This document shows positions 8,946 to 60,895 of a stretch of DNA of 64,000 bases, one piece after another (the stretch's first letter is position 1; every line of letters starts with the position of its first letter). The notes under the pieces are model-generated. The model saw nothing but the letters and a program-made list of their open reading frames with translations, did not search any database and was not told where the DNA came from. Made by a program: the position numbers and the translations under genes. Location: positions 124,001 through 188,000 of the forward strand of contig NZ_JAHLEL010000051.1 of NCBI RefSeq assembly GCF_020131355.1, in the 5' to 3' direction. The DNA is from Pseudonocardia sp. ICBG1293 (GTDB lineage Bacteria > Actinomycetota > Actinomycetes > Mycobacteriales > Pseudonocardiaceae).

Positions 8946-10572
8946 CCTGCGGCGGGATCCGGAAGGGCGCGACCGGGTCCGGGGTGACCGCTGCCATCAG
9001 CGCGACGGCGTCGGCGGGGTCCAGGTCCAGCACCTGCACCGAGCCGCCGCCCGCGGCGGTGGTCGCCTCCAGCGTCAGCACCCCGGCGCGGCGCTGGAAC
9101 AGGCTCTGCCGTATCCGCCAGCCGATGACGCCGTCGCGGCGCAGCGCGGTCGTCGTGCGCAGCAGCGACCCGTGCCGGGCGACGAGGTAGTGCTCGTCGA
9201 GCCGGTGGCCCAGGGCGCGGTAGCGGTCCAGCGCCAGCGGTACGGCCGCCACGACCAGCGCGACGCCGACCACGACCGGCCACACCGCGGCATCGAACCA
9301 GGCCACCACCCCGAGGGCGGCGGCCGGGACGAGCGCGGGGCCGACCGCGCGCACCAGGCGCCGGGTCCGGGCGCGCCGCGGGTGCGCGCGCAGGGGCCCG
9401 TCGGTCACCGGGCCGGTCGCGCGGCCAGCCGTCGCGGCGACCGCGTGGGCGTGTGCGCGGCGCACCGGCGGGCCGAGTGCGCCGCTGCCGGAGTCGGCGT
9501 CGTCGCCGGCCAGGCCGACGGCCAGCGCCCCGGCCTGGGCGCCGCCGCCCAGGGCCCGCACCAGCAGCGGCTCGGACACCGTGACCCCACGCAGCCGCTG
9601 CTCGGACACCGACAGCGAGCGCTTGGTCAGCAGGCCGCGTCGCACCCGCAGCGTGCCGTCGGGCTCGCGGCTGAGCCGGTGGTCCCACCAGCGTTCGACG
9701 AACAGCACGATGCTGCCGACGACCATGACCAGCAGCAGCGCACCGACCGCGACGAGCACCGTCGCCCAGACCGGCGCGGTCGACAGCTCCCCGGCGACGG
9801 CGTCGGCGCCGGGCAGCGAGCGCGGGTCGAGACCGGTCTCGTTCAGCACGTTCCAGCCCGCGCCGGCCAGCGCGCCGATCGCGGCCAGCGAGCTGACCGT
9901 GAGCGGGGCGTAGCGCAGTGAGGACCAGTCGATCCGGTCGAGCTCCTCACCGGCGGGCTCCTCCTGGTCCACCGGGCGGGCCGCGGAGCCGGTCCCGCCG
10001 GCATCCCCTCCGTCGATCCCGGCGGGCGCCGTCCCGGTCCCGCCGGGATCGATCCCGGCGGCGGTCGTCGCGGGGGCCGTGGCGGGCCGGGCGAGCAGCT
10101 CACGACGCAGCCGTTCGGCCTCGTCGGTGGTGACGGCGTCGAGGTCGAGGCCCGCATCCGACCTGCTCTGCCCGGAGCCGACCTTCACCACCGACAGCCC
10201 GACGATCCGGTGCAGCAGCGGCGCGGTCAGGTCGACGGTGCGGATCCGGTCCCGCGGCACCGAGCGACGCTGCCGGATCAGCAGCCCGCTGTGCAGCTCG
10301 ACGCGCTCGTCGGTGATCCGGTAGCGGGTCGTGCGCCACCGCACGACACCCGCCGCGACGGTGACGACGACCGCGGCCCCCGCGATCCAGACCTGGGTCG
10401 AGTTGCCGCTGCCCGCGCCGAACAGGACGAGCACGACCAGCGCCGGGGCCAGGCGCAGCAGCGCGGTGGCCGGGCCGACGAGCAGCATCTGGACCGGCAG
10501 CCGTCGCCACTCGACCTCGTCGAGGGTCGTGCCGGTGCCGGTGCCCGCGGCGGGTGCGTCGGGCTCGGTCAC
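8908..10572 (-). CDS. PH (bPH2/YdbT-like) domain membrane protein, two or more tandem domains
   Basis: 554 residues with several membrane segments, e.g. MLLVGPATALLRLAPALVVL and VWATVLVAVGALLLVMVVGS. After each hydrophobic pair comes a bacterial PH domain: RYRITDERVELHSGLLIRQR with VPRDRIRTVDL, then LRVRRGLLTKRSLSVSEQRL, then EHYLVARHGSLLRTTTALRR. This repeated layout matches YdbT of Bacillus and its actinobacterial homologues. The GTG start at 10572 overlaps the stop of the smaller PH protein by 4 nt, forming the usual YdbS-YdbT pair. A Gly/Pro/Ala-rich linker with GGTG/DGGD motifs lies near the middle. Precise role unknown; in Bacillus the pair is linked to bacteriocin resistance. Confidence 0.8.
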   Translation of the reverse strand: MTEPDAPAAGTGTGTTLDEVEWRRLPVQMLLVGPATALLRLAPALVVLVLFGAGSGNSTQVWIAGAAVVVTVAAGVVRWRTTRYRITDERVELHSGLLIRQRRSVPRDRIRTVDLTAPLLHRIVGLSVVKVGSGQSRSDAGLDLDAVTTDEAERLRRELLARPATAPATTAAGIDPGGTGTAPAGIDGGDAGGTGSAARPVDQEEPAGEELDRIDWSSLRYAPLTVSSLAAIGALAGAGWNVLNETGLDPRSLPGADAVAGELSTAPVWATVLVAVGALLLVMVVGSIVLFVERWWDHRLSREPDGTLRVRRGLLTKRSLSVSEQRLRGVTVSEPLLVRALGGGAQAGALAVGLAGDDADSGSGALGPPVRRAHAHAVAATAGRATGPVTDGPLRAHPRRARTRRLVRAVGPALVPAAALGVVAWFDAAVWPVVVGVALVVAAVPLALDRYRALGHRLDEHYLVARHGSLLRTTTALRRDGVIGWRIRQSLFQRRAGVLTLEATTAAGGGSVQVLDLDPADAVALMAAVTPDPVAPFRIPPQVSDAGGSRTDCG

Positions 10573-48026: not shown

Positions 48027-48969
48027 GCGCGCCCGGCACCGCGGCCGGGGTCGGCACCGTCGCCGTCGTCGGGACGGGGGTGATCGGCGTCGGCTGGACG
48101 GCGCTGTTCCTGGCCCACGGGCTGCACGTGCGCGCCTTCGACCCCGCCCCGGACGCGGAGGACCGGCTGCGCGCCGACCTCGCCGCGCTCGGCCCGTTCC
48201 CCGGCCACGCGGGCCCGCTGCCGGTGCAGAACCTGGTGTTCGCCACGAGCGCCGGCGCCGCGGCCGGGCCCGCCGGGTTCGTCCAGGAGAACGGCCCCGA
48301 GCGCGAGGACCTCAAGCACGCCCTGTTCGCCGAGCTGGACGAGGCCGCGGCCCCGGCGTCGTCCTCGCCTCCAGCTCCTCGGGCCTGCTCCCGACGAGCA
48401 TCGCCCGCGGCGCCGCCCGTCACCCCGAGCGGGTGCTCGTCGGGCACCCCTTCAACCCGCCGCAGGTCATCCCGCTGGTCGAGGTCGTGCCGGGGGAGCG
48501 GACCGCGGAGGCCGCGGTGGACACCGCGACGGCGTTCTACACCGCGCTGGGCAGACGGCCCGTCCGGCTGCGGGCCGAGGTGCCCGGTCACCTGGCCAAC
48601 CGGCTGCAGGCCGCGTTGTGGCAGGAGGCGTACTCGCTGGTCGAGCGCGGTGTGGCCACGGTCGCCGACGTCGACGCCGCCATCTCCCACGGGCCCGGCC
48701 TGCGCTGGGCCGTGCTCGGGCCGTTCGCCAACCAGCACCTGTCCGGAGGCCCCGGCGGCCTCGCGCACATCCTGGAGCACCTCGGTCCGCCCACCGAGCG
48801 GTGGTGGCGCGACCTCGGACAGGTCACGCTCACCCCCGAGCTGGCCACGACGCTGGTCGACGGCGTCCGCGACGCGCTGGACGGCCTCGACGGCCCCGAG
48901 CTCGCCGCCCGCCGCGACACCGTCCTCGCCGCACTGCTCGAGGCCAAGTCCCGTACCGAGCTCCCCTGA
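48023..48969 (+). pseudogene. 3-Hydroxyacyl-CoA dehydrogenase, frameshifted at a C-run
   Basis: N-terminal Rossmann half VAVVGTGVIGVGWTALFLAH, then PAGFVQENGPEREDLKHALF-AELDEAA. At 48351-48354 the sequence CCCC breaks the frame; a fifth C would give AAPGVVLASSSSGLLPTSIA and continue as VGHPFNPPQVIPLVEVVPGE (the conserved HPFNPP) and the C-terminal dimer domain AISHGPGLRWAVLGPFANQH. Restored length 315 residues. Everything else is intact, so sequencing error, phase variation or fresh mutation are all possible. It would oxidise the 3-hydroxyacyl-CoA made by the crotonase. Confidence 0.85.
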
Positions 48970-48983
48970 CGGAGGTTCCCCGC

Positions 48984-49856
48984 ATGCCCATCGACCCCGC
49001 CGCCGTCGACGCGATCGACGTGCACGTCCACGTCGAGCAGGACGGCCACGGCTGTCTCGCTCTCGACCAGGAGCTGCTCGACGCCTCGGCCAAGTACTTC
49101 AAGGCCGACCAGGACCGCACCCCGACCATCGACGCGATCGCCGAGCACTACCGGTCGCGGCGGATCGCCGCGGTGGTGTTCACCGTCGACGCGCCGTCGG
49201 GAACCGGCCACCCGCCGCTGTCCAGCGAGGAGATCGCCGACGCGGCGGCCGCGCACGACGACATCCTGATCCCGTTCGGCTCGGTCGACCCGCACACCGG
49301 CAAGGCCGCGGTCGCCCGTGCCCGGCGGCTGGTCACCGAGCACGGGGTCCGCGGCTTCAAGTTCCATCCCAGCCTGCAGGCGTTCGAGCCGAACGACGTG
49401 CGCTTCTACCCGCTCTACGAGGCCATCGCCGAACTCGGCGTGCCCGCGCTGTTCCACACCGGACAGACCGGGATCGGCGCCGGGCTGCCGGGCGGGCGCG
49501 GGATCAAGCTGCGGTACTCGAACCCGATGCTGCTCGACGACGTCGCCGCCGACCACCCCGGCCTCACCGTGATCATGGCGCACCCGTCGGTGCCGTGGCA
49601 GGACGAGGCGATCTCCATCGCCACCCACAAGTCCAACGTCTACATCGACCTGTCCGGCTGGTCGCCGAAGTACTTCCCCCCGCAGCTGGTGCGGGCGGCG
49701 AACACCATGCTGCGCCGCAAGGTGCTGTTCGGGTCGGACTACCCGGTCATCACACCGGACCGCTGGCTCGCCGACCTCGAGACGCAGGAGATCAGGCCCG
49801 AGGTCCGTCCGCTGATCCTCAAGGACAACGCCGTGCGGGTGCTCGGCCTGGGGTGA
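48984..49856 (+). CDS. Amidohydrolase-2 family metal-dependent hydrolase (CouO/PhdC-like)
   Basis: 290 residues. TIM-barrel amidohydrolase of the ACMSD type: IDVHVHVEQDGHGCLALDQE (HxH), FKFHPSLQAFEPNDVRFYPL, ALFHTGQTGIGAGLPGGRGI-KLRYSNP (His), VIMAHPSVPWQDEAISIATH (His) and LFGSDYPVITPDRWLADLET (Asp). Members next to aryl-CoA ligase, hydratase and dehydrogenase genes act in side-chain shortening of phenylpropanoids, proposed to cleave the 3-oxoacyl-CoA hydrolytically. ATG behind GGAGG. Last gene of the operon; a hairpin follows. Confidence 0.85.
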   Translation: MPIDPAAVDAIDVHVHVEQDGHGCLALDQELLDASAKYFKADQDRTPTIDAIAEHYRSRRIAAVVFTVDAPSGTGHPPLSSEEIADAAAAHDDILIPFGSVDPHTGKAAVARARRLVTEHGVRGFKFHPSLQAFEPNDVRFYPLYEAIAELGVPALFHTGQTGIGAGLPGGRGIKLRYSNPMLLDDVAADHPGLTVIMAHPSVPWQDEAISIATHKSNVYIDLSGWSPKYFPPQLVRAANTMLRRKVLFGSDYPVITPDRWLADLETQEIRPEVRPLILKDNAVRVLGLG

Positions 49857-49869
49857 TCGGCCCCGGTGA

Positions 49870-49901
49870 GGGGGCCGGTGCCGCATCCGGTACCGGACCC
49901 C
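49870..49901 (+). terminator. 14-bp hairpin after the catabolic operon
   Basis: Arms GGGGGCCGGTGCCG (49870-49883) and CGGTACCGGACCCC (49888-49901) with a 4-nt loop, one mismatch and one G-U pair. It begins 14 nt after the amidohydrolase stop. Confidence 0.65.
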
Positions 49902-50241
49902 TCGGTCGTCGCGACCGGCGCCCGGACCGTCGTGGGGCGCCGGATCCGGCCCGCGACGGCCCCCACCGGACGACCGGATGTCCGGACTCCTTCTCGGGGA
50001 GATCATCGGCGGCGACGTCGTCGCAGGTCAGCGGCGTGGAGCGATCCGGTTCCCGACGTCGTTGACACGATCGGGTGATTGATGGTTGCCGTTTCGGGCG
50101 GTCTCGTGCGGACCGTCCGGGCTCGCCCGGAGTAGCCCAGGTCACGTTCCGTGCCCCGTTTCGCGCCGAACCGGTCCCGGTCCCATGATGTGGACAGGGC
50201 CGGTCGCCGGTTACTCCGAACGGGTCTGCACACTTCCTCCC
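49902..50241 (+). other. Upstream region of the sulfur operon
   Basis: 340 bp without a convincing gene. TTGACA at about 50063 and TGGACA at about 50191 are -35-like; TACTCC and CACACT (50229-50234, 7 nt before the leader ATG) are possible -10 elements. The last would give a leaderless transcript of the leader peptide. No operator palindrome stands out. Confidence 0.4.
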
Positions 50242-50322
50242 ATGCACCTCGTCCCCCGGTTCGCGGTTCGGCGCCACGTCGATCTGCGCCGCCAGGCGAG
50301 CGCGCTCTGTTCCGTCGCCTGA
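50242..50322 (+). CDS. Leader peptide of the HVDLxRxxSALC type (sulfur-gene leader)
   Basis: 26 codons: MHLVPRFAVRRHVDLRRQAS then ALCSVA and TGA. The RRHVDLxRxASALC core is the pattern of short peptides annotated as putative leader peptides before sulfur-assimilation operons in actinobacteria, where a Cys codon near the end is thought to sense cysteine supply by attenuation. No SD is visible; the ATG may be the transcript start. It stands 312 nt before the first structural gene of an operon with a sulfur transporter and a methanethiol-oxidase-like protein, which fits. The motif recognition is from memory of such peptides and not a search. Confidence 0.7.
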   Translation: MHLVPRFAVRRHVDLRRQASALCSVA

Positions 50323-50634
50323 CCGCGCCCGGCTCCCGGGGCGCGCCCGCGCTCCGCCGCACGCCGTCCCCGCCACGGGGCCCGCAGCCGCGGTAGCCAC
50401 GGGCCCGCCCCAGCGCCCCGAGCTCCTCCTCGACCGCCCGCGCCCCCGCGCGGACCTCCCGCCCCGCCCGCACGGCGGCCCGGGAGGGGGTCGAGGCCCG
50501 CCGGAGCACACGTCCGCACCTGCCGCGCCCCCCCCGTCACCGTCCCGCACGGACGGTGCGGCGGCCCGCCGCTGCGCGAACGTCCACATCGGACCGCACC
50601 ATCCGCTCCCCGTCACGAATGAAGGAGACACGTC
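50323..50634 (+). promoter_or_regulatory. GC-rich 5' leader, possible attenuator
   Basis: 312 nt between leader peptide and first structural gene with several potential hairpins: CCCGGCTCCCGGG near 50327, and CCGCAC-GGACG-GTGCGG at 50545-50561 about 74 nt before the GTG. Spacing suits translation-coupled attenuation. No other gene seen; minus-strand frames here are low-complexity Arg/Gly/Pro. Confidence 0.4.
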
Positions 50635-50985
50635 GTGCCTCAGCACCGCGCACGGTCCGCGTCCCGGGTCCGGCTGATCGCCGGCGGCGCCGCACTGGCC
50701 GGCACCGCCCTGATCGGCCTGTCCGGCGCGGCCCAGGCGGCCACGCCGGACCTGGTCCCCGACCTGGGTCCGATCCTCAGCGCCCCGAACGACGACCAGC
50801 CGGACCCGGCGCCGACCGCGCCGCCGGTCGAGTCGTCCTACGAGGCGTTCGACTCCGACCAGCCGATCCAGCAGCTGCGTGACTTCGCCCCCGCGGGCGT
50901 CCCCGCCGCCGGTCTGGTCGACGTCGTGTCGAAGGCGCCCAAGCAGATCACCCCGACCTTCCTGTCCGGCGGGGCCGGCGAATGA
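50635..50985 (+). CDS. Small secreted protein of the methanethiol-oxidase-like operon
   Basis: 116 residues, no family recognised. Clear signal peptide (RVRLIAGGAALAGTALIGLS-GAAQA, cleavage after AQA). The mature part is acidic and Pro-rich: DLVPDLGPILSAPNDDQPDP, then SSYEAFDSDQPIQQLRDFAP and DVVSKAPKQITPTFLSGGAG. No Cys or His, so it is not an obvious metal carrier. GAAGGAG precedes the GTG. Its stop overlaps the next gene's start by 4 nt, so it is part of the same operon and may be a partner or stability factor of the exported enzyme. Confidence 0.75.
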   Translation: MPQHRARSASRVRLIAGGAALAGTALIGLSGAAQAATPDLVPDLGPILSAPNDDQPDPAPTAPPVESSYEAFDSDQPIQQLRDFAPAGVPAAGLVDVVSKAPKQITPTFLSGGAGE

Positions 50986-52814
50986 GCCTGCTCCCGCAGT
51001 CCCGCTGGGCACGACGAGGGCTCGTCGCCCTCGCCGGTGCCGCCGTCGTCGCCGGGGTCGTCGCGATCCCGGCGGCGGCCCAGGGAACGATCGACAAGGT
51101 CAAGTCCGAGGTCACCGGCGCCGACGGCAAGAACTACTGGGTCGAGAACAACCTCACGCCGGAGGCCCGTCAGCAGTCCGCCGACGGGCCCAAGAAGGAG
51201 TACGCGCTCGTCTGGGCCGGTGACGAGAACATCGCCGACACCGCGGTCGCGGACGTGCGCAACCTGCCCGGGTCGCTGCTCGACCCGGTCGACAAGGTCC
51301 GCGACGCGGCGCCCGGCCCGGACTTCCTGGCCGTCGTCGACGTCACCGAGGACACCCCGGACTACGGCAAGGTCGTCAACACCGCGACCGTCGGACCGCT
51401 GGTGGAGAACGAGCCGCACCACATGCAGTACTCGTGGCGCAAGGGCGACAAGATCTACGCGGGCGGCCTGTACTCCGCGGCCACCTACGTCTTCGACGTC
51501 GCGGCGCTGCCGGAGATCAAGCTCTCCGGCATCTCGCTCCCGTCCCAGACGCTGTGCGGCTCGGTCCCCGACGCCTACTGGGTCCTGAAGGACGGCACCG
51601 CGTACGGCACCTACATGGGCGGCCCGGTCGCCCCGGGCCCGTGCCGCTACACCAACGGTGAGGTCCGGACCGGCAACGGCTTCGCGGGCGCGCCCGGCTC
51701 GGTCGTGCGGTTCGACCAGGAGGGCAAGAACCTGGTCGAGGCCCCGGCCGCGACCGAGACCCCGGAGGACCCGACCCAGTGCCTCAACATGCCGGCACTG
51801 GGCAACCCCACCTGCGCCAACCCGCACGGCATCCAGGTCCGCGAGGACCTGAACACCATGGTCACCAGTGACTACGCGGAGCCGCGGTCGATCATCCTCG
51901 ACCCGGTCAAGAACCCGTCGCCGTACCTGCGTCGGCCGACCGTGCGGACCTGGGACATCTCCGACCTGAACAAGTCGAAGGTCAAGTCGGTGCAGTACCT
52001 GCCGACCGGCCCGCGCTCCAACGGTGTCGACCCGCTGCGCAACGAGAACCGCGCCGTCATGGAGACCACGGTCACCAACCGGCCGGAGCACAAGGGCGCC
52101 TTCGCCCAGACCATGCAGGGCGGTGCGATCCACTACACGCCGGACATCACCGCCGAGAACCCGGTCTGGAAGGAGGTCTTCGACCTGGCGACCGTCGCCC
52201 CGGAGCTGGGCGTCGGTGGCGAGAACGGCGGCCCGAGCGCCAACGGTGGCTGGATCCAGACCAGCGCCGACGACACGACGCTCTACCACGCCACGATCGG
52301 TCGCAAGGCCGGCACGCTGGGCCCGGACGACAAGGGCACGGCGGGCGGTGTCTTCTCGCTCGACATCGAGAAGCTGCTGGCCTCGGGCGACGCGCCGCAG
52401 TGCTCCATCGACACCATCGAGGAGAGCACCGCCGGTGGTGCCGAGAGCGACTGCCCGACCATCAAGGGCACGGTCGGCATCAACCCGGACCAGACCGGTG
52501 CGGGCCCGCACCGGGGCGCGCTGGACAACCTGGAGCGCGGTGACGACGGCTACTACCGGCACACCGACCAGCCCCGGCGCCTCGCGACCGCGAACTACTT
52601 CGTGGCCCGCACCGGGCTCGACGGTGACCACCGCCTGTGCATGACCGACATCGCCCCGGACGGCACGCTGAGCCTGGACGAGTCGTTCAAGGACGAGGAC
52701 ACCGGCGAGACCTGCGTCAACTTCAACCGCGAGAGCTGGCCGCACGGCGACTTCGGTAACGCCAAGCCGCACTCGATGCTGTTCGTCGCCGCCGACGAGG
52801 ACATCAAGGACTGA
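50982..52814 (+). CDS. Exported SBP56 / methanethiol-oxidase-superfamily protein
   Basis: 610 residues. N-terminal signal peptide (ARRGLVALAGAAVVAGVVAI-PAAAQG; RR suggests possible Tat use). The mature part follows the selenium-binding-protein-56 beta-propeller pattern: EYALVWAGDEN, GPDFLAVVDVTEDTPDYGKV, NEPHHMQYSWRKGDKIYAGG-LYSAATYVFDV with the HH pair near residue 145, CANPHGIQVREDLNTMVTSD, VRTWDISDLN and NAKPHSMLFVAADED. Bacterial SBP56 proteins (MtoX) are copper-dependent, periplasmic oxidases converting methanethiol to formaldehyde, H2S and H2O2. This copy is longer (usual about 430-470) and divergent, so activity is inferred. Overlaps the next gene by 1 nt (TGATG). Confidence 0.72.
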   Translation: MSLLPQSRWARRGLVALAGAAVVAGVVAIPAAAQGTIDKVKSEVTGADGKNYWVENNLTPEARQQSADGPKKEYALVWAGDENIADTAVADVRNLPGSLLDPVDKVRDAAPGPDFLAVVDVTEDTPDYGKVVNTATVGPLVENEPHHMQYSWRKGDKIYAGGLYSAATYVFDVAALPEIKLSGISLPSQTLCGSVPDAYWVLKDGTAYGTYMGGPVAPGPCRYTNGEVRTGNGFAGAPGSVVRFDQEGKNLVEAPAATETPEDPTQCLNMPALGNPTCANPHGIQVREDLNTMVTSDYAEPRSIILDPVKNPSPYLRRPTVRTWDISDLNKSKVKSVQYLPTGPRSNGVDPLRNENRAVMETTVTNRPEHKGAFAQTMQGGAIHYTPDITAENPVWKEVFDLATVAPELGVGGENGGPSANGGWIQTSADDTTLYHATIGRKAGTLGPDDKGTAGGVFSLDIEKLLASGDAPQCSIDTIEESTAGGAESDCPTIKGTVGINPDQTGAGPHRGALDNLERGDDGYYRHTDQPRRLATANYFVARTGLDGDHRLCMTDIAPDGTLSLDESFKDEDTGETCVNFNRESWPHGDFGNAKPHSMLFVAADEDIKD

Positions 52815-54820
52815 TGTCGGTGCCGACCCTCCTGCTGCCCGTCGGGGCAGCGCTCGTGCCGGCCGGCGGGCTCCTGCCCGCCGGCCCGGCCGGGGACGCC
52901 CCCGCCCTGCTCCGTGCAGTGGCGGGGGCCGCCCCGGCGGTCCTCGCCGCAGGACCTCAGGACGGCGTGCCGTTCGCGGACGCGGCCCTGCGCCTGGTCC
53001 TGCTCACCGCGCTCGCCGTGGTGGCCGGGTCCGGCCTGGTGCGCGTCCTCGCCGGTGCGCCCGGACGCGCCGAACGGGTCGTCGCGGGAGTCGCGGCGCT
53101 CGTCGCCGTCTCCGCCGCGGTTGCCGCGGTGACCCGGTCCGGCGCCGGGCCGACCGGCTGGACCCTGCTGCTCGCGGCGACGGTCGCGGTGCCGGCCCTG
53201 CTGGCCACGTCCCGCCCCGTGTTCTCCGTGCTCCCCGCGGCGGTGGTCACGGCACTGCTGGTCCTGCAGCTCGCCGGTACCCCGGGCGCCGGACCGCGGT
53301 TCGCGCTCGACGCCGGGTACGCCGTCGCCGGGGCGCTGGCCGCCGGCGCCGCGGTGCACCTGGTCACCACCCGTACCGACGACTCCGCGCGGCCCGCCCG
53401 GGTGCGCGTGCTCGGCGTCGCGGCGGGAGCCGTGGGGGCCGTGCTCGCCGTGGTCCGGCTCGTCGTCGCCGGTCCCTTCTCCCTCACCGACCTGCACGGC
53501 ACCGGCTTCGGCCGGGCCGCGCTGGTGACCGTCGTGGCTCCCGCGGCCGTCGCGGGCCTGCTGCTCGCCGAGACGTGGCTGACCCGCCGCGCCGCCGGCG
53601 GGAGCCGGTCCGAGGCCGTGCGTGCCGACGAGGTGCGCGACCGGCTCCGCACGCCGTCCGCGCTGGCCGCGGTCACCGCGGTCGGGGCCGCCACGCTGCT
53701 GGCGGCACTGCCCGCGCCGGCTCCCGCTGCCGTCCCCGGACAGGCGCTGGTGCGTGCGGTCGACCTCGGGGCCGGGCCGCTCACGCTGGCGGTGGCCCCG
53801 ATGCGGCCCGGCCCGAACCTGGTGCAGCTCACCGGCGCCGGGGTCAGCGTGACCGGCCCGGACGCCACCATGCCCGCCGGTCACGCCGCGGAGGGCGCCC
53901 CCGCCGGCTACGCCGTGCGGGCCGGCGACCGGGACGTGCCCTTCACCGCGCGCTCGGGCGCCCCGGGCGGCTGGGCACTGGTCGACCTGCCCGAGGGCAC
54001 GACCTCGATCACCCTCACCGCGGGCGGACTGGCCCGCGCGGTGCCGGTCGACGTCGGCACCGACCGGACCGCGCCCGCCGGCGCGACCGGCGCCGACGGC
54101 CCGGAGTGCCTGTCGGCCGCCCTCGGGCGGATCGTGGCCGGGGGCGACCCCGAGCTCGGCCCGTGCCCGTCGGAGACCCTCGACCCGGCCGACGCCCGCG
54201 CCCTGCGCGGCACCGTCCGCGCGCTCGCCTCGCAGCAGGCACCGGGCCTGGCGATCGCCGGGGACGTCTCACCGCGCTCCCGCGCCGCCGCCGACGCCGT
54301 GCGCGCCGAGGCCGCCGCCGCCGGGCTGCCGGTGCGCTCGGCCCCGGGACCGGACGACGCCCTGGTCGTCCTGTCCGGGTGGCAGCACGCCGCGACCACC
54401 GTGCGGGACACCGCCCGCACGGCGCTGACCACGCCGACCGCACTCGGCGGGACCTACCTCGCGCCCTGGTTGCTGACCGGGGGAGTGCTGGGGCAGAGCC
54501 CCGGCACCCTGCTGCCGCTGGACTTCGGACCGCAGGAGCAGGTTCCGCAGCGCTACGTCCGGACGCTCGCCGCGGTCGCACCGGGGTCCGCCCCGTCGCT
54601 GTCGGGACTGCGTGCCTGGGCCGCGACGACCGGTGATCCCTACACCGACCCGTCGCCCGCCCTGTACGGTGCCGCCCCGGTCAGCGTGCCGATGACCACC
54701 GACACCGGCGACGGCGGGCACCACGGTGCTCCGAACGAGGCCGCCTGGTTCCCGGGCGGCGCCGTCGTCCGGATCGGCTCCGCCCTCGACCCCGGCGGCC
54801 CCGCCGGACCCACCCCCTGA
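52814..54820 (+). CDS. Polytopic membrane protein with CopD-like segment and large external C-terminal domain
   Basis: 668 residues, not matched with confidence to a named family. The first 300 residues contain about eight helices; the stretch FSLTDLHGTGFGRAALVTVV near residue 224 and the following helix resemble the YGR region of copper-resistance CopD domains. From about residue 305, after VTAVGAATLLAALPAPAPAA, an external domain of about 360 residues begins: PGQALVRAVDLGAGPLTLAV, LVDLPEGTTSITLTAGGLAR, and an ABC/peptidase-like LVVLSGWQHAATTVRDTART-ALTTPTALGGTYLAPWLL block. The C-terminus has HHGAPNEAAWFPGGAVVRIG. Position directly after the copper-enzyme-like gene suggests metal delivery or anchoring (inference). 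Confidence 0.65.
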   Translation: MSVPTLLLPVGAALVPAGGLLPAGPAGDAPALLRAVAGAAPAVLAAGPQDGVPFADAALRLVLLTALAVVAGSGLVRVLAGAPGRAERVVAGVAALVAVSAAVAAVTRSGAGPTGWTLLLAATVAVPALLATSRPVFSVLPAAVVTALLVLQLAGTPGAGPRFALDAGYAVAGALAAGAAVHLVTTRTDDSARPARVRVLGVAAGAVGAVLAVVRLVVAGPFSLTDLHGTGFGRAALVTVVAPAAVAGLLLAETWLTRRAAGGSRSEAVRADEVRDRLRTPSALAAVTAVGAATLLAALPAPAPAAVPGQALVRAVDLGAGPLTLAVAPMRPGPNLVQLTGAGVSVTGPDATMPAGHAAEGAPAGYAVRAGDRDVPFTARSGAPGGWALVDLPEGTTSITLTAGGLARAVPVDVGTDRTAPAGATGADGPECLSAALGRIVAGGDPELGPCPSETLDPADARALRGTVRALASQQAPGLAIAGDVSPRSRAAADAVRAEAAAAGLPVRSAPGPDDALVVLSGWQHAATTVRDTARTALTTPTALGGTYLAPWLLTGGVLGQSPGTLLPLDFGPQEQVPQRYVRTLAAVAPGSAPSLSGLRAWAATTGDPYTDPSPALYGAAPVSVPMTTDTGDGGHHGAPNEAAWFPGGAVVRIGSALDPGGPAGPTP

Positions 54821-54843
54821 CCACCCCCCACGAGGAGACTCCC

Positions 54844-56139
54844 GTGTCGATCACGAAGGATCCGCCCGGCCGGTCGCCGGGATCCCTGACCCGCGCGCTG
54901 CGCGAGCTTCCCGGAACCGGGCGCACCGCGTTCGGCCCGCAGGACCGCGCGGCCGCCCCGCCGCAGTGGCGGGTCGTCGCCGTCGGCCTGGTCCTGGCCG
55001 TGCTGTTCCTGGTCGGGGTGAGCACGGTGGCCCCGGCGACGATGGTCGGCACCGCTGCGCTCGGCCTCGCACTCGGTTTCACCCTGTTCCACTCGCGGTT
55101 CGGCTTCACCTCCGGCTGGCGTCAGCTCGTCGCGGTCGGGCAGGGCGCGGCGATCCGCGCGCACATGGTCATGCTGGCGACGGCGTCGGTGCTGTTCGCG
55201 GTGATCCTCTCGTCCGGGTTCGCCCTGGCCGGCGAGCCGAAGGGGTTCACGAACCCGATCGGCATCGGGCTCGTCGTCGGTGCCTTCCTGTTCGGCATCG
55301 GCATGCAGGTCGGCAGGTCGTGCGCCTCGGGCACGCTGTTCGCCGTCGGCAGCGGGCAGTCCGCCATCGTGCTGACGTTGTTCGGGTTCGTCCTCGGCTC
55401 GATGTTCGCGGTGTTCACCCACACCTTCTGGACGCAGACCGTCCCGCAGGGTCCGAGCGTCAACCTGGCCCAGCTGCTGGGCTACCCCGGGGCCGTCGCC
55501 CTCACGTTGCTCGTGACGGCCGCGATCACCGCGGTCACCTGGGTGGTCGCCCGCCGCCGCACCCCGCCGCCGGTGGAGCGACCTCCGTCGGCCCGCGGCG
55601 TCGCGCGGGTCCTGCGCGGCTCGTGGCCGATGTGGGTCGGCGCGATCGTGCTCGCCGCGCTCAACGCGGCGGTCCTGTTCGTCTCCGCGGCCCCCTGGGG
55701 CGTGACCTCGGCCTTCGCGCTGTGGGGCTCGAAGGTGCTGCAGGCGCTCGGGTTCGACATGGCGGGCCTGGCCTACTGGCAGGTCCCGGCGAACGCCCGG
55801 TCGCTCGCCGCCCCGGTGCTGGCCGACCGGATCTCGAACCTCGACGTCGGCATCATGATCGGCGCGCTGGTCGCCTCCGCGGTCGGCGGCGCGTTCGTGC
55901 TGCACAAGCGGGTCCCGTGGAAGCTCGCGCTCGGCGCGGTCCTCGGCGGCATCGCGATGGGCTACGGCGCGCGCCTCGCGGGCGGCTGCAACATCGGTGC
56001 CTACTTCTCCGGCATCGCCTCGTTCAGCCTGCACGGCTGGATCTGGGCCGTCGTCGCACTCGGCGGCACCTGGGTCGGGCTGCGGCTGCGGCCGCTCTTC
56101 GGCCTGTCCAACCCCAAACCGGCCGACTCGCTCTGCTGA
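54844..56139 (+). CDS. YeeE/YedE-family sulfur-compound transporter
   Basis: 431 residues, about 10-11 TM. Two inverted YeeE/YedE halves with the conserved Cys motifs: GIGMQVGRSCASGTLFAVGS (Cys near residue 160) and YGARLAGGCNIGAYFSGIAS (Cys near 381), plus GFTLFHSRFGFTSGWRQLVA at the start. In TsuA of this family such cysteines relay thiosulfate across the membrane; YedE proteins handle other reduced sulfur or selenium species. GTG behind GAGGAGAC. Its place after the methanethiol-oxidase-like gene suggests uptake of sulfide/thiosulfate produced outside (inference). Confidence 0.87.
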   Translation: MSITKDPPGRSPGSLTRALRELPGTGRTAFGPQDRAAAPPQWRVVAVGLVLAVLFLVGVSTVAPATMVGTAALGLALGFTLFHSRFGFTSGWRQLVAVGQGAAIRAHMVMLATASVLFAVILSSGFALAGEPKGFTNPIGIGLVVGAFLFGIGMQVGRSCASGTLFAVGSGQSAIVLTLFGFVLGSMFAVFTHTFWTQTVPQGPSVNLAQLLGYPGAVALTLLVTAAITAVTWVVARRRTPPPVERPPSARGVARVLRGSWPMWVGAIVLAALNAAVLFVSAAPWGVTSAFALWGSKVLQALGFDMAGLAYWQVPANARSLAAPVLADRISNLDVGIMIGALVASAVGGAFVLHKRVPWKLALGAVLGGIAMGYGARLAGGCNIGAYFSGIASFSLHGWIWAVVALGGTWVGLRLRPLFGLSNPKPADSLC

Positions 56140-56177
56140 GCCTGCCGGACGCTCCCCCCACCAGAGAGGTTCACACG

Positions 56178-56507
56178 ATGACCGCACGCACGACCGTCCG
56201 CGCGCTGGCCGCTGTCGCCGGCGCCGGGGCGCTGGCCACCCTGGCCGGTGGACTCGCGCACGCCGACGAGGGCCACCACGACAGCCGGCACGGCCACGGC
56301 GACGCCTACTACGACGGCTCCGTCTGGCGCTACGACGGCGAGGTGACCCCGAGCGACTCGGCGGACCTCGACGAGTCCGCCGGCGAGGGCGGGGACACCC
56401 CGGTGTACCTGCTCTCCGGGGTCCCGGGCGCGCCGCTGCCCGAGGACCTGCTGAAGCCGGTCGACCTGACCGCACCCGCGTTCGGGGTGCTCGACGGCCT
56501 GACCTGA
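56178..56507 (+). CDS. Small secreted His-rich protein
   Basis: 109 residues. Signal peptide TTVRALAAVAGAGALATLAG-GLAHA, then a His/Asp cluster DEGHHDSRHGHGDAYYDGSV (residues 30-49; five His) that could bind Cu or Zn, an acidic middle (DSADLDESAGEGGDTP) and a C-terminus VYLLSGVPGAPLPEDLLKPV-DLTAP. No family recognised. GAGAGG lies 8 nt before the ATG, 38 nt after the transporter stop, same strand, before a terminator; so it ends the operon. A secreted metal carrier for the exported oxidase is a reasonable guess. Confidence 0.72.
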   Translation: MTARTTVRALAAVAGAGALATLAGGLAHADEGHHDSRHGHGDAYYDGSVWRYDGEVTPSDSADLDESAGEGGDTPVYLLSGVPGAPLPEDLLKPVDLTAPAFGVLDGLT

Positions 56508-56581
56508 CCGGTCCCACCCCGGGTGGCTGCGCACAGGGCCGCCCGGGGTGCACCCGGCTCGCACGGGGCAGGCGGGCCGGT

Positions 56582-56616
56582 GACCGTCCCGTCCGGGATC
56601 TCCGGACGGGGCGGTC
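56582..56616. terminator. 15-bp hairpin between convergent operons
   Basis: GACCGTCCCGTCCGG and CCGGACGGGGCGGTC flank GATCT; one G-U pair, no mismatch. It closes the sulfur operon (plus) and the YceI gene (minus). Confidence 0.75.
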
Positions 56617-56634
56617 GTGTGCGCGGTGAGGTGC

Positions 56635-57438
56635 TCAGCCCTCCTGCAGGACCGCCTGCACGTCGAGGTCGATCCGCAGGGTCCGCCCGACCGCCAGCAC
56701 ACCGGCCAGCACCGACTGGTTCCAGTCGATCGCGAACTCGTCGCGGGAGATCTCGGTCGTGGCGGTGAACGCCGCCCGGGTGCCGCCCCAGAGGTCGGGC
56801 CCGGTGCCGCCGTAGGTCATGTGCAGGTCGACCGGGGCCTTGACCCCCTTGAGCGCGAGCATGCCGTGCACCGTCCACCGGGTGGCGTCGACCCGGGTCA
56901 GGCCGTCGCCCTCGTAGCCGATGGCCGGGTGGGCGTCGACGTCGAGGAAGTCGGCGGTCCGCAGGTGGGTGTCGCGGTCGGGGTCGTCGGAGTCCACCGA
57001 GCCCGCGTCGATCGACACGCTCACCGAGCTGGCCTCGAACGGGTCGGCCACCCGCAGGTCGCCGGAGAACCGGCGCAGCCTGCCGTGGATGCGGCTCATG
57101 CCCAGGTGCAGGGCGGTGGCCCGGATACTGGAGTGCTGCGGGTCGATCCGCCACAGGCCGGGAGCGGGCAGTACCGCGCCACCGGCCCGGGCCAGCTCCA
57201 TGCGGCCGAGGTCGGTGCCGTCCCCGATGAGCGCGACCGACCGCGCGGACGGCTCGTACCCCGCCGCCGCGACGACGACCGTGTGCGGTCCCGGTGCGAG
57301 CTCCGCCACCGCGAACCCGCCGTCGGCCCGGCTGGCCGCCCGGCCCCGCTGGACCCCGCCCGCGTCCATCACGGTGACCGTCGCGCCGATCACCGGCCAG
57401 CCGTCGGGTGTGCTCAGCCGTCCGTAGAGCTCAGCCAC
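56635..57438 (-). CDS. YceI-family protein with N-terminal carboxypeptidase-regulatory-like domain
   Basis: 267 residues. Residues 1-80 are a CarboxypepD_reg/Ig-like fold (LYGRLSTPDGWPVIGATVTV, DGGFAVAELAPGPHTVVVAA-AGYEP). The rest is a YceI lipocalin-like barrel: GLWRIDPQHSSIRATALHLG, DPFEASSVSVSIDAGSVDSD, RDTHLRTADFLDVDAHPAIG-Y, WTVHGMLALKGVKAPVDLHM and FAIDWNQ. YceI barrels bind polyisoprenoids or lipids. No signal peptide, so it would stay in the cytosol. The start overlaps the upstream gene by 8 nt. The fusion repeats the domain of its operon neighbour. Confidence 0.85.
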   Translation of the reverse strand: MAELYGRLSTPDGWPVIGATVTVMDAGGVQRGRAASRADGGFAVAELAPGPHTVVVAAAGYEPSARSVALIGDGTDLGRMELARAGGAVLPAPGLWRIDPQHSSIRATALHLGMSRIHGRLRRFSGDLRVADPFEASSVSVSIDAGSVDSDDPDRDTHLRTADFLDVDAHPAIGYEGDGLTRVDATRWTVHGMLALKGVKAPVDLHMTYGGTGPDLWGGTRAAFTATTEISRDEFAIDWNQSVLAGVLAVGRTLRIDLDVQAVLQEG

Positions 57439-58252
57439 GTCCCTGCTCCGTCCTCGTGGGGCCGCCGATCCGGTCGCCGGTCGGGTCGGGGGCGCCGAAG
57501 CGCACCTCGACCGGTGTCGTCGCGCCGCGTGCCACCTGCACCGCGACCACGACCGGGGCCCAGCCGCTCGCCGTCAGCTCGTGGCGGCCGGGCGGCAGGC
57601 CGTGCAGCTCGTAGCTCCCGTCCCGCCCGGTGGTGGTCTCGGCGACGGTGCGCCCGTCGCTGTCCCCGATCACGATCCGCGCCCCGGGGACCGGACGACC
57701 GTCGCCGCTGCGGGCGACGCCGGCGATCCCGGCCAGGGCCGGGAACCGCAGCTCCACCGGCGGCGCCGCCGGGTCGGCGTCCACCGTGCGGGCCAGCGGC
57801 CCGTGCCCCGGCGCGGTCGCGGTGAGGGTGTGCGGACCGGTGCCGGGGGTCTCGGCCAGGAACCGGCCCCCCGGGTCGGTCGGGGTGTGGGCGACGACCT
57901 CGCCCGCGGTGTCGATCAGCGTGACGGCGGCGCCCCCGACCGGCCGCCCGACGGCGTCGGTCAGCGTGCCCCGCACGGTGCCGCCGCCGGCGACGGTCAC
58001 GTCGTGCCGGGCGGGGGAGGCGCCGACGGCGACCAGCCCCGCGTCGGGCCCGGCGCCGTCGGTGCGGGTCACCACCAGGTACGTCCCGCCGGTGCCCAGA
58101 CCGACGCCGTAGGTGCCGTCCTCGCCGCCGCCGGCGCGCCCGTGCTGGCGGCCGTCGAGGTCGGCGACGGTGACGGTCGCGCCCGGCACGGGGGCACCGG
58201 TCCGCCCCCGCACGGTGCCCACGACCGCAGGTCCGTCCCGTTCCGGTGTCAC
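57431..58252 (-). CDS. Triple carboxypeptidase-regulatory-like (Ig-fold) repeat protein
   Basis: 273 residues made of three tandem CarboxypepD_reg domains: VVGTVRGRTGAPVPGATVTV-AD, TVRGTLTDAVGRPVGGAAVT-LIDT and IAGVARSGDGRPVPGARIVI-GDSDG, each with the DGxY/F-x-L-xPGxH/Y ending (GSYELHGLPPGRHELTASGW). No signal peptide or enzyme domain. It forms an operon with the YceI fusion protein that carries a fourth copy. GTG start at 58252. Probably a binding or scaffold protein; function unknown. Confidence 0.75.
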   Translation of the reverse strand: MTPERDGPAVVGTVRGRTGAPVPGATVTVADLDGRQHGRAGGGEDGTYGVGLGTGGTYLVVTRTDGAGPDAGLVAVGASPARHDVTVAGGGTVRGTLTDAVGRPVGGAAVTLIDTAGEVVAHTPTDPGGRFLAETPGTGPHTLTATAPGHGPLARTVDADPAAPPVELRFPALAGIAGVARSGDGRPVPGARIVIGDSDGRTVAETTTGRDGSYELHGLPPGRHELTASGWAPVVVAVQVARGATTPVEVRFGAPDPTGDRIGGPTRTEQGRG

Positions 58253-58437: not shown

Positions 58438-59382
58438 ATGACCGCCACCGTTCCGGAGCACGGGCTCGAGGCCGGGAACGACCGGCGCCCGGCGGACCAG
58501 CACGCCGCCGACCGTCACGACACCGCCGAGCGTCTGCTGCGCTCGTCCGCGGAGATGTCCTTCGACCCGGCGACCCAGGTCGACTGGGACACCCCGCTGG
58601 ACCGCGACCTCCACGGCATGAGCCCGGAGTGGAGCAGCCTGTTCGGCACCGCCTACTGGGCGGAGCTGACCGAGGAGCAGCGCAAGGAGCTGACCCGCCA
58701 CGAGTCCGCATCGGTCGCCTCGACCGGCATCTGGTTCGAGATGATCCTGCAGCAGCTGATCCTGCGGGACTTCTACGCCAAGGACCCGACCGACCCGGCC
58801 TTCCAGTGGGCACTGACCGAGATCGCCGACGAGTGCCGCCACTCGATCATGTTCGCCCGCGGCTCGGCCAAGCTCGGCGCCCCGGCCTACATCCCGAAGA
58901 AGCGCGTCGTCGCGCTGGGGCGGCTCTGTGCTGCCGTCTACTCCGGGGAAGCCGCCTACGCTTCCATCCTCGTCGCCGAGGAGGTTCTCGACGTGATGCA
59001 GCGGGACTGGATGCGCGACGAGCGCGTCGTCCCGTTCGTGCGGACGATCAACAACATCCACGTGGTCGAGGAGTCGCGGCACATGAAGTTCGCCCGCGAG
59101 GAGACGCGTGACCGTCTCCGCGGGGCGGGCCCGGTGCGCCGCCGGGTCCAGGCGCTGTTCGTGGCGCTGGCCGCCTACGAGATCGTCACCGCGATGTGGA
59201 ACGAGGAGCTGTACGAGAACGCGGGCCTCGACCGCAGGCGCGCGCTGCACGAGGCGCGCAACAACGAGCACCACAAGGCGATGCTGCGGTCCTCCTGCGC
59301 CGGGCTGATGGAGTTCCTGTCCTCCTGCGGCCTGCTCACGAAGCCTGCGCTGTACTTCTACCGCCGCGCGAACCTGATCTGA
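58438..59382 (+). CDS. AurF-type diiron oxygenase
   Basis: 314 residues, ferritin-like four-helix fold of the p-aminobenzoate N-oxygenase family. Diiron ligands are expected in LTRHESASVASTGIWFEMIL, TEIADECRHSIMFARGSAKL (E, H), ILVAEEVLDVMQRDW, and NIHVVEESRHMKFAREETRD (EExxH). It would oxidise an amine or other substrate with O2, needing electrons from the ferredoxin-reductase encoded 13 nt downstream. GAGGAG precedes the ATG. Substrate unknown; the repressible promoter suggests a stress or specialised-metabolite role. Confidence 0.87.
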   Translation: MTATVPEHGLEAGNDRRPADQHAADRHDTAERLLRSSAEMSFDPATQVDWDTPLDRDLHGMSPEWSSLFGTAYWAELTEEQRKELTRHESASVASTGIWFEMILQQLILRDFYAKDPTDPAFQWALTEIADECRHSIMFARGSAKLGAPAYIPKKRVVALGRLCAAVYSGEAAYASILVAEEVLDVMQRDWMRDERVVPFVRTINNIHVVEESRHMKFAREETRDRLRGAGPVRRRVQALFVALAAYEIVTAMWNEELYENAGLDRRRALHEARNNEHHKAMLRSSCAGLMEFLSSCGLLTKPALYFYRRANLI

Positions 59383-59395
59383 CCCGGAGCCGGCC

Positions 59396-60895
59396 GTGCC
59401 CTTCGCGATCACCCAGACCTGCTGCACCGACGCGTCCTGCGTCGCGGCCTGCCCGGTCAACTGCATCCACCCGACGCCCGGTGAGGCGGACTTCGCCACG
59501 ACCGACATGCTCTACATCGACCCGCGGGCGTGCATCGACTGCGGGGCGTGTGCCGACGCCTGCCCGGTCGACGCGATCTTCCCGGTGGAGAGGCTGAGTG
59601 CCTCGCTCGCCGGGTACGCCGAGGTCAACGCGGACTACTACGAGGGCAGGCCGGTCGCCGGGAAGCTGGAGGGCGACTCCCCGCTGTTCCACGAGTGGTA
59701 CCCGCTGTCGTTCACGCGGTCGCTGCCCGCGGACATGGCGCCGCTCGACGTCGCCGTCGTCGGGACCGGGCCCGCGGGGATGTACGCCGCGCAGGACCTG
59801 CTGCTGCACACCTCGTCGACGGTCACGCTCTACGACCGGCTCGACGTCGCGGGCGGGCTGGTCCGGTTCGGGGTAGCGCCCGACCACCCGTCGACGAAGG
59901 GGGTCGGGGAGTCCTTCGCCCGGTTCCACGCGCACCCGCGGGTGCGGATGCGGCTGGGCACCGAGATCGGCCGCGACGTGTCGGTCGAGGAGCTGGCCGC
60001 CCGGCACGACGCCGTGGTCTGGGCCGTCGGCGCGCCCGCGCCGCGGGACCTGGGCCTGCCGGGGGAGGGGTTGCCCGGCAGCATCGCCGCCGACACCGTC
60101 GTGGGTTGGTACAACGGCCATCCCGACGTGCCGCGCGACGCCGTCGACACGTCGGTGGAGCGGGTCGTCGTGGTCGGTACCGGCAACGTCGCGATCGACG
60201 TCGCCCGGGTGCTCACCGCCCCGGCCGCCGACCTGGAGGGCACGCCGATCGACCCCGCCGCGCTCGCGGCGCTGCGTGCCGGTGCGGTCACCGACGTCGT
60301 GCTGCTCGCCCGTCGCGGCCCGGAGGCGGTCGCCGCGACCGCCCCGGAGCTGCGCGAGCTCCTCGGTCGCAGCACGGTCGAGGTGGTCGTGGACGACCAC
60401 GACCCGCGGATCGCCGAGTCCCTCGACGGTCCCGCCGCGTCCCCGGCGCACGCGCTGCTCCGCGGCGCCCGCCGGGAGAAGATCGACTGGTCGGTGCCCG
60501 CCGAGCGGCCGCGGGTGGTGTTCCGGTTCCACTCGGCGCCCGAGGGCGTCGACGGCAGCACCCGGGCCGAGGGGGTGCACACCGCCGACGGCACGCTGAT
60601 CGCGGCCGGTCTGGTCGTGCGTGCGGTCGGGCACCGCGGCCGCCCGGTCGCCGGTCTGCCCTTCGACGACGAGCGCGGCGTCGTCCCGCACGACGCCGGG
60701 CGGGTCGAGGGCCGTCCCGGCCACTACGTCGTCGGCTGGATCAAGCGCGGCCCGTCCGGCGGGATCGGGACGAACCGCACCTGCGCGGCCGAGACGGTCG
60801 GATCCCTGCTCGACGACGCCGTCGCCGGTCGGCTCCCGTCGCGCCGACCGCGTTCGCGCCTGGGCACGCTCACCCGGCGCCTCCGCCGGGGCTGA
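59396..60895 (+). CDS. Ferredoxin-ferredoxin:NADP+ reductase fusion (FprB-like)
   Basis: 499 residues. The N-terminal ferredoxin carries two cluster motifs, CTDASCVAACPVNCI and CIDCGACADACPVDAIFPVE. The rest is an adrenodoxin-reductase-like flavoprotein: VAVVGTGPAGMYAAQDLLLH (FAD), GVAPDHPSTKGVGESFARFH, VVVVGTGNVAIDVARVLTAP (NADP) and VVGWIKRGPSGGIGTNRTCA. It passes electrons from NADPH through the fused ferredoxin, presumably to the AurF-type enzyme in the same operon. GTG with GGAG 6 nt upstream, 13 nt after the oxygenase stop. Basic C-terminal tail (TRRLRRG). Confidence 0.92.
   Translation: MPFAITQTCCTDASCVAACPVNCIHPTPGEADFATTDMLYIDPRACIDCGACADACPVDAIFPVERLSASLAGYAEVNADYYEGRPVAGKLEGDSPLFHEWYPLSFTRSLPADMAPLDVAVVGTGPAGMYAAQDLLLHTSSTVTLYDRLDVAGGLVRFGVAPDHPSTKGVGESFARFHAHPRVRMRLGTEIGRDVSVEELAARHDAVVWAVGAPAPRDLGLPGEGLPGSIAADTVVGWYNGHPDVPRDAVDTSVERVVVVGTGNVAIDVARVLTAPAADLEGTPIDPAALAALRAGAVTDVVLLARRGPEAVAATAPELRELLGRSTVEVVVDDHDPRIAESLDGPAASPAHALLRGARREKIDWSVPAERPRVVFRFHSAPEGVDGSTRAEGVHTADGTLIAAGLVVRAVGHRGRPVAGLPFDDERGVVPHDAGRVEGRPGHYVVGWIKRGPSGGIGTNRTCAAETVGSLLDDAVAGRLPSRRPRSRLGTLTRRLRRG

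Follow-up and report, generated by a model that had tools for sequence, protein, structure and literature searches.

A Leader-Associated Pseudonocardia Operon with a Distant SBP56-like Propeller and a CopD-like Partner: A Candidate System for Extracytoplasmic Sulfur Scavenging

Introduction

Well-known pathways for scavenging of organic sulfur, such as those of SsuD, TauD and SfnG, are intracellular and use flavin or iron oxygenases. The closest described relatives of the system considered here belong to the SBP56 family, which includes human SELENBP1 and Hyphomicrobium MtoX. The activity of SELENBP1 is reported to require H73, H74, H137, H140, D189 and E252 (PMC10362175), and the ligands proposed for Hyphomicrobium MtoX are H89, H90, H140 and H412 (PMC5739008). 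Among methanethiol oxidases (MTOs), RpMTO is reported to depend on Cys28, and the enzymes of Rhodobacteraceae to yield sulfane sulfur rather than H2S (PMC10936201). The YeeE-like protein SoxT1A is described as carrying sulfur into the cytoplasm (PMC11582611). In mycobacteria, cysteine-rich upstream open reading frames (ORFs) that precede cysA2 have been proposed to act as attenuators (PMC4633059), and PMC9094748 cites Canestrari 2020 for cysteine-responsive attenuation. Here, we describe an operon at positions 50242-56507 of a 64,000-nucleotide stretch of the genome of Pseudonocardia sp. ICBG1293 (contig NZ_JAHLEL010000051.1, positions 124,001 to 188,000; the whole stretch is referred to as the window), which encodes a distant SBP56-like protein, a CopD-like membrane protein and a YeeE/YedE-family transporter (YedE) behind a putative cysteine-type leader peptide. 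With moderate confidence, we suggest that these genes constitute a cysteine-regulated, extracytoplasmic sulfur-scavenging operon, which depends on a metal, most likely copper, and is switched on by shortage of cysteine.

The Operon and Its Distribution

The leader (50242-50322) is followed by five genes on the same strand (50635-56507). The ORF list, the sequence and a codon-usage gene caller concur on this arrangement, which is that of the first-pass annotation of the window, where a leader and five co-directional, tightly spaced or overlapping genes had been placed. Adjacent genes overlap by 4 bases and by 1 base at the first two junctions and are separated by 23 and 38 bases at the last two. 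The individual features are as follows (aa, amino acids; nt, nucleotides).

50242..50322, + strand: leader peptide MHLVPRFAVRRHVDLRRQASALCSVA, 26 aa, a putative cysteine attenuator; 28.5 bits against NF042934 (cut-off 27), motif at 79 of 121 distinct loci.
50323..50634, + strand: region of 312 nt between leader and first gene, the presumed attenuation site; no convincing match in Rfam and conserved-fold searches.
50635..50985, + strand: small secreted protein, 116 aa, no Cys; no Pfam match, secretion judged by eye.
50982..52814, + strand: SBP56-like seven-bladed propeller, 610 aa, export-type N-terminus (AlphaFold2, Foldseek, hhalign), proposed to be a copper-dependent oxidase of sulfur compounds; overlaps the preceding gene by 4 bases.
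52814..54820, + strand: CopD-like membrane protein, 668 aa (AlphaFold2 model, homologue L131), proposed to be a copper loader or substrate receptor; overlaps the SBP56-like gene by 1 base.
54844..56139, + strand: YeeE/YedE-family sulfur transporter (PF04143, 220 bits), 23 bases after the partner gene.
56178..56507, + strand: small secreted protein, 109 aa, five His within residues 28-40, after a gap of 38 bases; no Pfam match, secretion judged by eye.

For comparison, 140 loci (denoted L) were gathered, i.e., the window and 22, 37 and 80 others, which reduce to 121 distinct loci when those with exact identity over the last 250 residues are merged; close, non-identical relatives stay in the set. 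In a scan of named genomes, which retained the best 80 of 171 relatives, the highest identities, up to 85 percent, belong to Pseudonocardia. Within this genus, 27 of 60 genomes harbor the SBP56-like gene, and the carriers include Pseudonocardia sulfidoxydans, which is linked to sulfide degradation. Amycolatopsis, Saccharopolyspora and Pseudonocardia dioxanivorans are also among the carriers, which are soil actinobacteria, several of them from antibiotic-producing genera. Among the literature matches listed, which were mostly titles and the beginnings of abstracts, a description of the gene pair or of the operon was not found.

The SBP56-like Propeller

Sequence profiles alone would leave the 610-aa protein unnamed, because its scores are below the relevant cut-offs: the match to SBP56 (PF05694) is 18.4 bits over residues 111-150 only (gathering score 34), and the best curated match, to the methanethiol oxidase model NF052453, is 27.3 bits (equivalog cut-off 650). 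A phmmer search of the Protein Data Bank (PDB) also revealed no convincing relative (best E 0.28). The AlphaFold2 model, obtained with an input alignment of 37 homologues (pLDDT 85.6, pTM 0.87), is closest to 2ECE, the SBP56 of Sulfolobus tokodaii, in a Foldseek search against the PDB (E 1.1e-17, runner-up 5.2e-9). The VIA aligner matched 378 residues of the model to 2ECE at 3.2 A and 21 percent identity with Z 29.9, a value tied by the generic propellers 1l0q (Z 30.3) and 7bid (Z 29.3), which both cover fewer residues. In addition, hhalign matched the family profile to that of canonical SBP56, built from ten actinobacterial proteins fetched via PF05694 (10 of 12 found), with probability 91.8 and E 7.4e-7 over 284 columns.

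Because the predicted fold is nearest to that of 2ECE and the profiles match in hhalign, the 610-aa protein is assigned as a distant SBP56 relative on a separate branch of the family. The SBP56 fold anticipated in the first-pass annotation is thus recovered by structure prediction and profile comparison, while the PF05694 search itself stays under its cut-off; export, also anticipated there, agrees with a hydrophobic, export-type N-terminus as judged by eye. MtoX proper was considered as the identity of the protein and dropped, given the sub-cut-off score and the mismatch of ligand residues. A canonical SBP56 was not found in the genome of the window in a search with PF05694.

The Metal Site

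In canonical actinobacterial SBP56, the equivalents of the functional residues, read by spacing, are HH 66-67, HxxH 134-137, D186 and E250, where the Glu is off by one. The HH motif of the 610-aa family (H146 H147) is invariant in all 37 homologues, and so is E361, which hhalign aligns with E250 of canonical SBP56 (E252 of SELENBP1 by spacing, off by one). Other residues conserved in 37/37 sequences are D197, H282, H510, H550 and H597.

The position of the HxxH motif (H137/H140 of SELENBP1) falls on residues 188/191 according to hhalign and 197/200 in a manual reading, and in neither alignment does any of the 37 homologues carry a His at this site. Residue 197 is Asp in all 37, and L118 alone of the 37 rows displays an HxxH elsewhere within residues 150-266. 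An Asp at the position of D189 of SELENBP1 is also missing in either alignment; hhalign places C278 opposite D186 and H282 opposite the adjacent conserved His 190, and in the ungapped spacing H282 is one residue off D186. The only cysteines on the list of invariant residues of the family are C267 and C278, and it is a guess that they form a disulfide. Overall, the pocket seems to have been rebuilt rather than lost, and copper is the likely metal to be bound, judging from the other invariant residues.

The CopD-like Partner

Of the 118 loci counted (3 of the 121 are excluded for lack of room downstream), 111 have the partner as the gene that directly follows on the same strand, a number that increased to 113 when tblastn recovered the gene in L106 and L169. 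The five loci in which the partner is not the next gene are L123, L124, L128, L129 and L218. Among the genomes of the genus, the partner is present in 26 of 27 with the SBP56-like gene vs 4 of 33 without it. The conserved core is the SBP56-like/CopD-like pair, and YedE and the small proteins vary in presence and position; of the gene order outlined in the first-pass annotation, the pair is therefore kept across loci, but the five-gene order is not a conserved unit.

The AlphaFold2 model of the 668-aa partner (pLDDT 84.6) consists of eight long helices within the first 300 residues, followed by a beta domain. Residues 421-655 resemble type-1 periplasmic-binding proteins (PBPs; VIA, Z about 16) and a Met/His stretch is found at the end. 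The PBP and helix-bundle assignments are from VIA Z values of 14-17, which in the case of helical bundles lie only a little above those obtained with unrelated proteins. A Foldseek search with the partner gave no match reaching E 0.001; the best, at 0.005, were to cytochrome bd and PBP folds. The conserved portion of the protein is its extracytoplasmic part; of the 36 sequences compared, at least 90 percent have a His close to the C-terminus. In L116-L118, with starts as set by the codon-usage gene caller, the partners appear to have lost most of the membrane part.

The window partner itself matches no Pfam family at E up to 0.1, CopD (PF05425) included, and its designation as CopD-like is taken from homologues. 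In L131, a single chain combines CopC (63 bits), CopD (42 bits, cut-off 32.1) and Peripla_BP_6 (56 bits); among the seven partner homologues scanned, L133 and L125 scored 29.2 and 19.3 bits against PF05425, i.e., under the cut-off, and four others gave nothing. These sequences indicate that the partner descends from CopC-CopD fusions. The CopD-like membrane protein with a large external domain proposed in the first-pass annotation hence finds its backing in relatives, but not in a Pfam match of its own sequence.

At L129, the gene directly downstream of the propeller gene encodes a multicopper oxidase (8018-9367, scanned), and another member of its cluster lies nearby in L128. Within the group of distant loci L129, L128, L124 and L126, a gene resembling a separate type-1 PBP, as judged by eye, is located near the SBP56-like gene in some cases.

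The YedE Transporter and Sulfur-Related Neighbors

The transporter matches PF04143 with 220.2 bits, well above the gathering score of 27, and also the TsuA structures 8j4c/6leo. The curated models are not reached: the protein scores 66.4 bits against TsuA NF052577 (equivalog cut-off 400), 48 of 645 bits against a second TsuA model and 141 of 350 bits against the YedE/FdhT model. Cys160, Cys382 and Cys431 are shared by 73 of 73 relatives, and the last of them falls within the final three residues. The window YedE is the sole PF04143 match found in its genome. As a member of the module, as which it had been listed in the first-pass annotation, YedE holds for about half of the loci: it is found within seven genes at 59 of the 121, on the same strand in 51 and on the opposite strand in 8, and the latter group indicates that the association is more than the persistence of a single fixed operon. 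Among the genus genomes, a YedE scoring over 190 bits occurs in 23 of the 27 that contain the SBP56-like gene vs 12 of the 33 that do not.

Six Streptomyces plasmid records contain a homologue, and five of these were opened. In four of the five, the plasmid copies adjoin cysD: in three records the pair is oriented divergently to a set of cysH-cysC-cysD plus an ABC transporter (of the aliphatic-sulfonate type in two), with a nitrite/sulfite reductase next, and in one record cysD only is found. A complete-looking set of sulfate-assimilation genes is located beside SARP regulators on the linear Streptomyces plasmids of L031, L234 and L235, where it perhaps supplies sulfur to a biosynthetic cluster. 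One gene cluster occurs near 4 of 60 loci (L116, L117, L122 and L133), and its member in L116 has a rhodanese domain (60.8 bits); a gene of the class-V aminotransferase/cysteine-desulfurase type is found within seven genes at 9 of the 121 loci. Molybdenum-hydroxylase-type pairs, composed of [2Fe-2S] and molybdopterin subunits, are close in L125 (10741-13643, scanned), L126 and L130. The genome of the window also contains a clear SelD (C38:596117-597025, 378.9 bits), i.e., selenium metabolism probably exists in the organism.

The Leader Peptide

The window leader passes the cut-off of NF042934, and the motif RRHVDLRxQASALC, with a stop soon after, is found upstream of the operon at 79 of the 121 distinct loci. 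Since the same pattern is seen at 0 of 121 when these regions are read on the reverse strand, and in 6 of 452 strand-readings taken from other gaps, the leader is not a chance peptide; with a relaxed pattern the numbers are again 79/121, with 0/121 and 4/452 in the controls. In L119 and L121 the leader precedes the gene one upstream, and the matches in L163, L169 and L222 resemble chance. Close to the SBP56-like operon, the same leader is also found before a TauD-family gene (L158, 14958-15884, 183.7 bits), before SsuD-like genes (L161, 3480-4607, and L162; the best model for L161 is alkanesulfonate monooxygenase at 184 of 510 bits) and before MsnO8-family monooxygenases (L046, 13018-14148, 318.7 bits, and L154), where one member of each of the three types was scanned. 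The leader had been called sulfur-type in the first-pass annotation, a designation that these genes behind it elsewhere bear out. It may be that the leader marks sulfur-scavenging genes in actinobacteria.

A TTGACA box is located 36 nt before the first in-frame leader ATG (distance in the reference row) and is identical in 19 of 19 Amycolatopsis-type regions, a placement compatible with the leader being at or near the 5' end of the transcript. An Rfam scan of 49700-57000 at E up to 1 returned one match, to a snoRNA model and far under threshold, and RNAalifold, applied to leader regions from the same genus (16) and of the Amycolatopsis type (19), gave no convincing conserved attenuator. A leader of its own was found for YedE in 0 of 59 cases. 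An AsnC-type regulator cluster occurs within seven genes in 8 of the 42 loci without a leader vs 1 of the 79 with one. The regulator is directly upstream in L051 and L052, members of the cluster are also near L116, L117, L210, L216, L217 and L221, and it perhaps provides an alternative amino-acid-responsive control.

Proposed Mechanism and Alternatives

The gene content, predicted fold, conserved residues, leader, neighborhoods and co-occurrence were observed or computed; from these we infer export, the metal, catalysis, the substrate, the transport cargo and attenuation, and with them every chemical step. Upon scarcity of Cys-tRNA, ribosomes translating the leader would stall at its Cys codon and the downstream genes would be expressed, as suggested by the leader family. 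The SBP56-like propeller would be exported and hold a metal, most likely copper, in its central pore, coordinated by the rearranged invariant His, Asp and Glu residues. The CopD-like partner, acting outside the membrane, would supply copper or present the substrate, thereby filling the place of SCO1 in MtoX loci. Outside the cytoplasm, the enzyme would oxidize a small thiol or a related organosulfur compound to release sulfane sulfur or sulfide, and YedE would bring the released sulfur into the cell for cysteine synthesis, possibly handing it on via its invariant C-terminal cysteine. When considered together, the formation of sulfane sulfur by MTOs, the import performed by SoxT1A and the leader make up a consistent cycle from cysteine shortage to cysteine synthesis. 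The leader and the cys-gene neighbors point to acquisition of sulfur rather than C1 metabolism.

Tentatively, and as a possibility that falls somewhat short of probable, the family may represent a second, separate actinobacterial SBP56 lineage, in which the metal pocket has been rebuilt and SCO1/MauG is replaced by a dedicated CopC-CopD-PBP partner, and which is used for cysteine-attenuated extracellular desulfurization of thiols or organosulfur compounds with delivery of sulfur via YedE into cysteine synthesis. In this system the fold, the importer and the type of leader are known; the conserved combination, the partner and the rebuilt site are new. If the proposal is true, the chemistry is done outside the cell by a metal propeller enzyme with its own partner and the sulfur is returned via a YedE-type importer. 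The family, which in the opened Streptomyces plasmid records bears the annotation hypothetical protein, would then gain a function. The proposal would also extend the SBP56 family, for which it is debated whether sulfide or sulfane sulfur is the product, and provide a natural cysteine-responsive context in which this question can be tested.

A number of observations speak against the sulfur-scavenging scheme. Because the aligned HxxH is missing, the copper site is a guess from the other invariant residues, and RpMTO needs its Cys28 while only C267 and C278 are invariant cysteines here. YedE is missing from the seven-gene neighborhood at 62 of the 121 loci (for 9 of them the available downstream sequence is less than 4 kb), and 12 of the 33 genus genomes without the SBP56-like gene do harbor YedE. 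By pattern, 42 of the 121 loci have no leader (for 4 the available upstream sequence is less than 700 nt, and two have it one gene higher); contig ends thus account for only a small share of the loci that lack YedE or a leader. The Pseudonocardia loci L050-L052 contain the pair with neither leader nor YedE, and sulfur genes are lacking near the homologue in one of the five Streptomyces records that were opened. The distribution is patchy, with the SBP56-like gene in at least 22 of 249 genomes of the order and at least 15 of 394 of the class (lower bounds, as five or three candidates were scored per genome), and the loci share descent, so that the counts are of non-independent events. Furthermore, the scheme assigns no role to the small secreted proteins.

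The first-pass annotation had described a methanethiol/C1-sulfur enzyme, i.e., a true extracytoplasmic methanethiol oxidase that converts methanethiol to formaldehyde and sulfide, for carbon and sulfur. The fold and the HH motif shared with SBP56 are consistent with such an enzyme, as is the best curated match, although weak. The molybdenum-hydroxylase-type pairs near the distant loci could oxidize the aldehyde, and Pseudonocardia sulfidoxydans is among the carriers. We nevertheless consider this explanation unlikely, because the score is far below the 650 bits set for MtoX, the HxxH site holds no His and the D189 place no Asp, and the leader is a sign of cysteine supply rather than of carbon. 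In addition, SCO1 is elsewhere: the only match in the genome is on contig C8 and the operon is on C51, in line with the view of the first-pass annotation that the genes form a coherent module from which SCO1 is absent. A non-enzymatic function as a receptor or binding protein, in which a sulfur (or selenium) compound or copper is trapped by the propeller together with the partner's PBP domain and is then either transferred to YedE or reported by a signal, would account for the type-1 PBP fold at the partner C-terminus, and for the separate PBP-like gene seen by eye near some loci. Here, the YeeE-like SoxT1B, described as a signal unit (PMC11582611), offers a parallel, and the AsnC-type regulator that adjoins L051 and L052 upstream and the selD gene of the organism fit as well. 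The invariant His/Asp/Glu set, however, looks catalytic or metal-binding, the AsnC-type cluster is found within seven genes at only 9 of the 121 loci and the leader points to cysteine, which makes a receptor quite improbable.

Still less probable, indeed very unlikely, is a module devoted to copper handling, where the SBP56-like protein would store or chaperone copper, and control by cysteine would reflect thiol-copper chemistry rather than sulfur supply. The CopC-CopD ancestry of the partner, the His near its C-terminus, the multicopper oxidase gene at L129 and the gene from its cluster at L128 agree with this idea, but neither the association with YedE and cys genes nor the company that the leader keeps with TauD-, SsuD- and MsnO8-like genes has an obvious role in copper homeostasis. 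Selenium as the main role is suggested by names (selenium-binding protein, YedE/FdhT) and by selD; the leader and the cys neighbors favor sulfur.

Small Secreted Proteins and Adjacent Genes

The 116-aa protein belongs to a cluster of small secreted proteins found around the operon, with 161 members across 96 of the 140 loci, and selected clusters of such proteins are near 87 of the 121 distinct loci. The secreted His-rich protein of the first-pass annotation does carry its five His at residues 28-40, but this character is confined to a small cluster of 7 members from few species; at most loci the small secreted proteins are from other clusters.

Upstream of the operon, at 48027-48969, a 3-hydroxyacyl-CoA-dehydrogenase-like gene (named by eye) is frame-broken, with the C-terminal 178 aa encoded at 48433-48969 in another frame. 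The gene is intact in L034 (321 aa) and L037 (309 aa), i.e., the break in the window is either a sequencing error or a real pseudogene. Downstream, two genes on the minus strand (56635-58252) encode carboxypeptidase-regulatory-like domains, one fused to YceI and the other with three repeats, and this gene pair remains beside the operon in several loci of the same genus. At 58438-60895, an AurF-type oxygenase gene (324 bits) is located 13 bases ahead of a gene for a fused ferredoxin/NAD(P)-oxidoreductase, a plausible oxygenase-reductase pair.

Comparison with Known Systems

The window protein shares with MtoX/SBP56 (PF05694, NF052453) a predicted propeller closest to 2ECE, an export-type N-terminus, the HH motif and the aligned Glu, and in both systems a copper-type partner gene is found nearby. 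In contrast to canonical SBP56, it is about 150 residues longer and scores under both curated cut-offs; the differences from MtoX include an HxxH site without His and a D189 site without Asp. Unlike MtoX loci, the operon does not contain SCO1 and is equipped with a cysteine-type leader, a CopD-PBP partner and a YedE neighbor.

The partner resembles the CopC-CopD/PcoD copper import proteins (PF04234, PF05425) through its distant homologues L131 and L133, which start with CopC, continue with CopD (just under the cut-off in L133) and end in the same C-terminal region as the partner. The window protein differs in that it has no CopC domain, its CopD part is under detection and conservation lies in the extracytoplasmic beta domain together with the type-1 PBP domain. 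The transporter has the PF04143 match and the CxSG and GGCN cysteine motifs in common with the YeeE/YedE transporters (TsuA, SoxT1A, YedE/FdhT), but falls under the curated TsuA and YedE/FdhT models and carries a Cys at the very C-terminus, as do all 73 relatives. Like the actinobacterial cysteine leaders (NF042934; mycobacterial polycysteine attenuators), the leader passes the family cut-off and sits upstream of sulfur genes; it has a single Cys in its terminal ALC, whereas the mycobacterial cysA2 leader is described as having a C-terminal cysteine cluster (PMC4633059).

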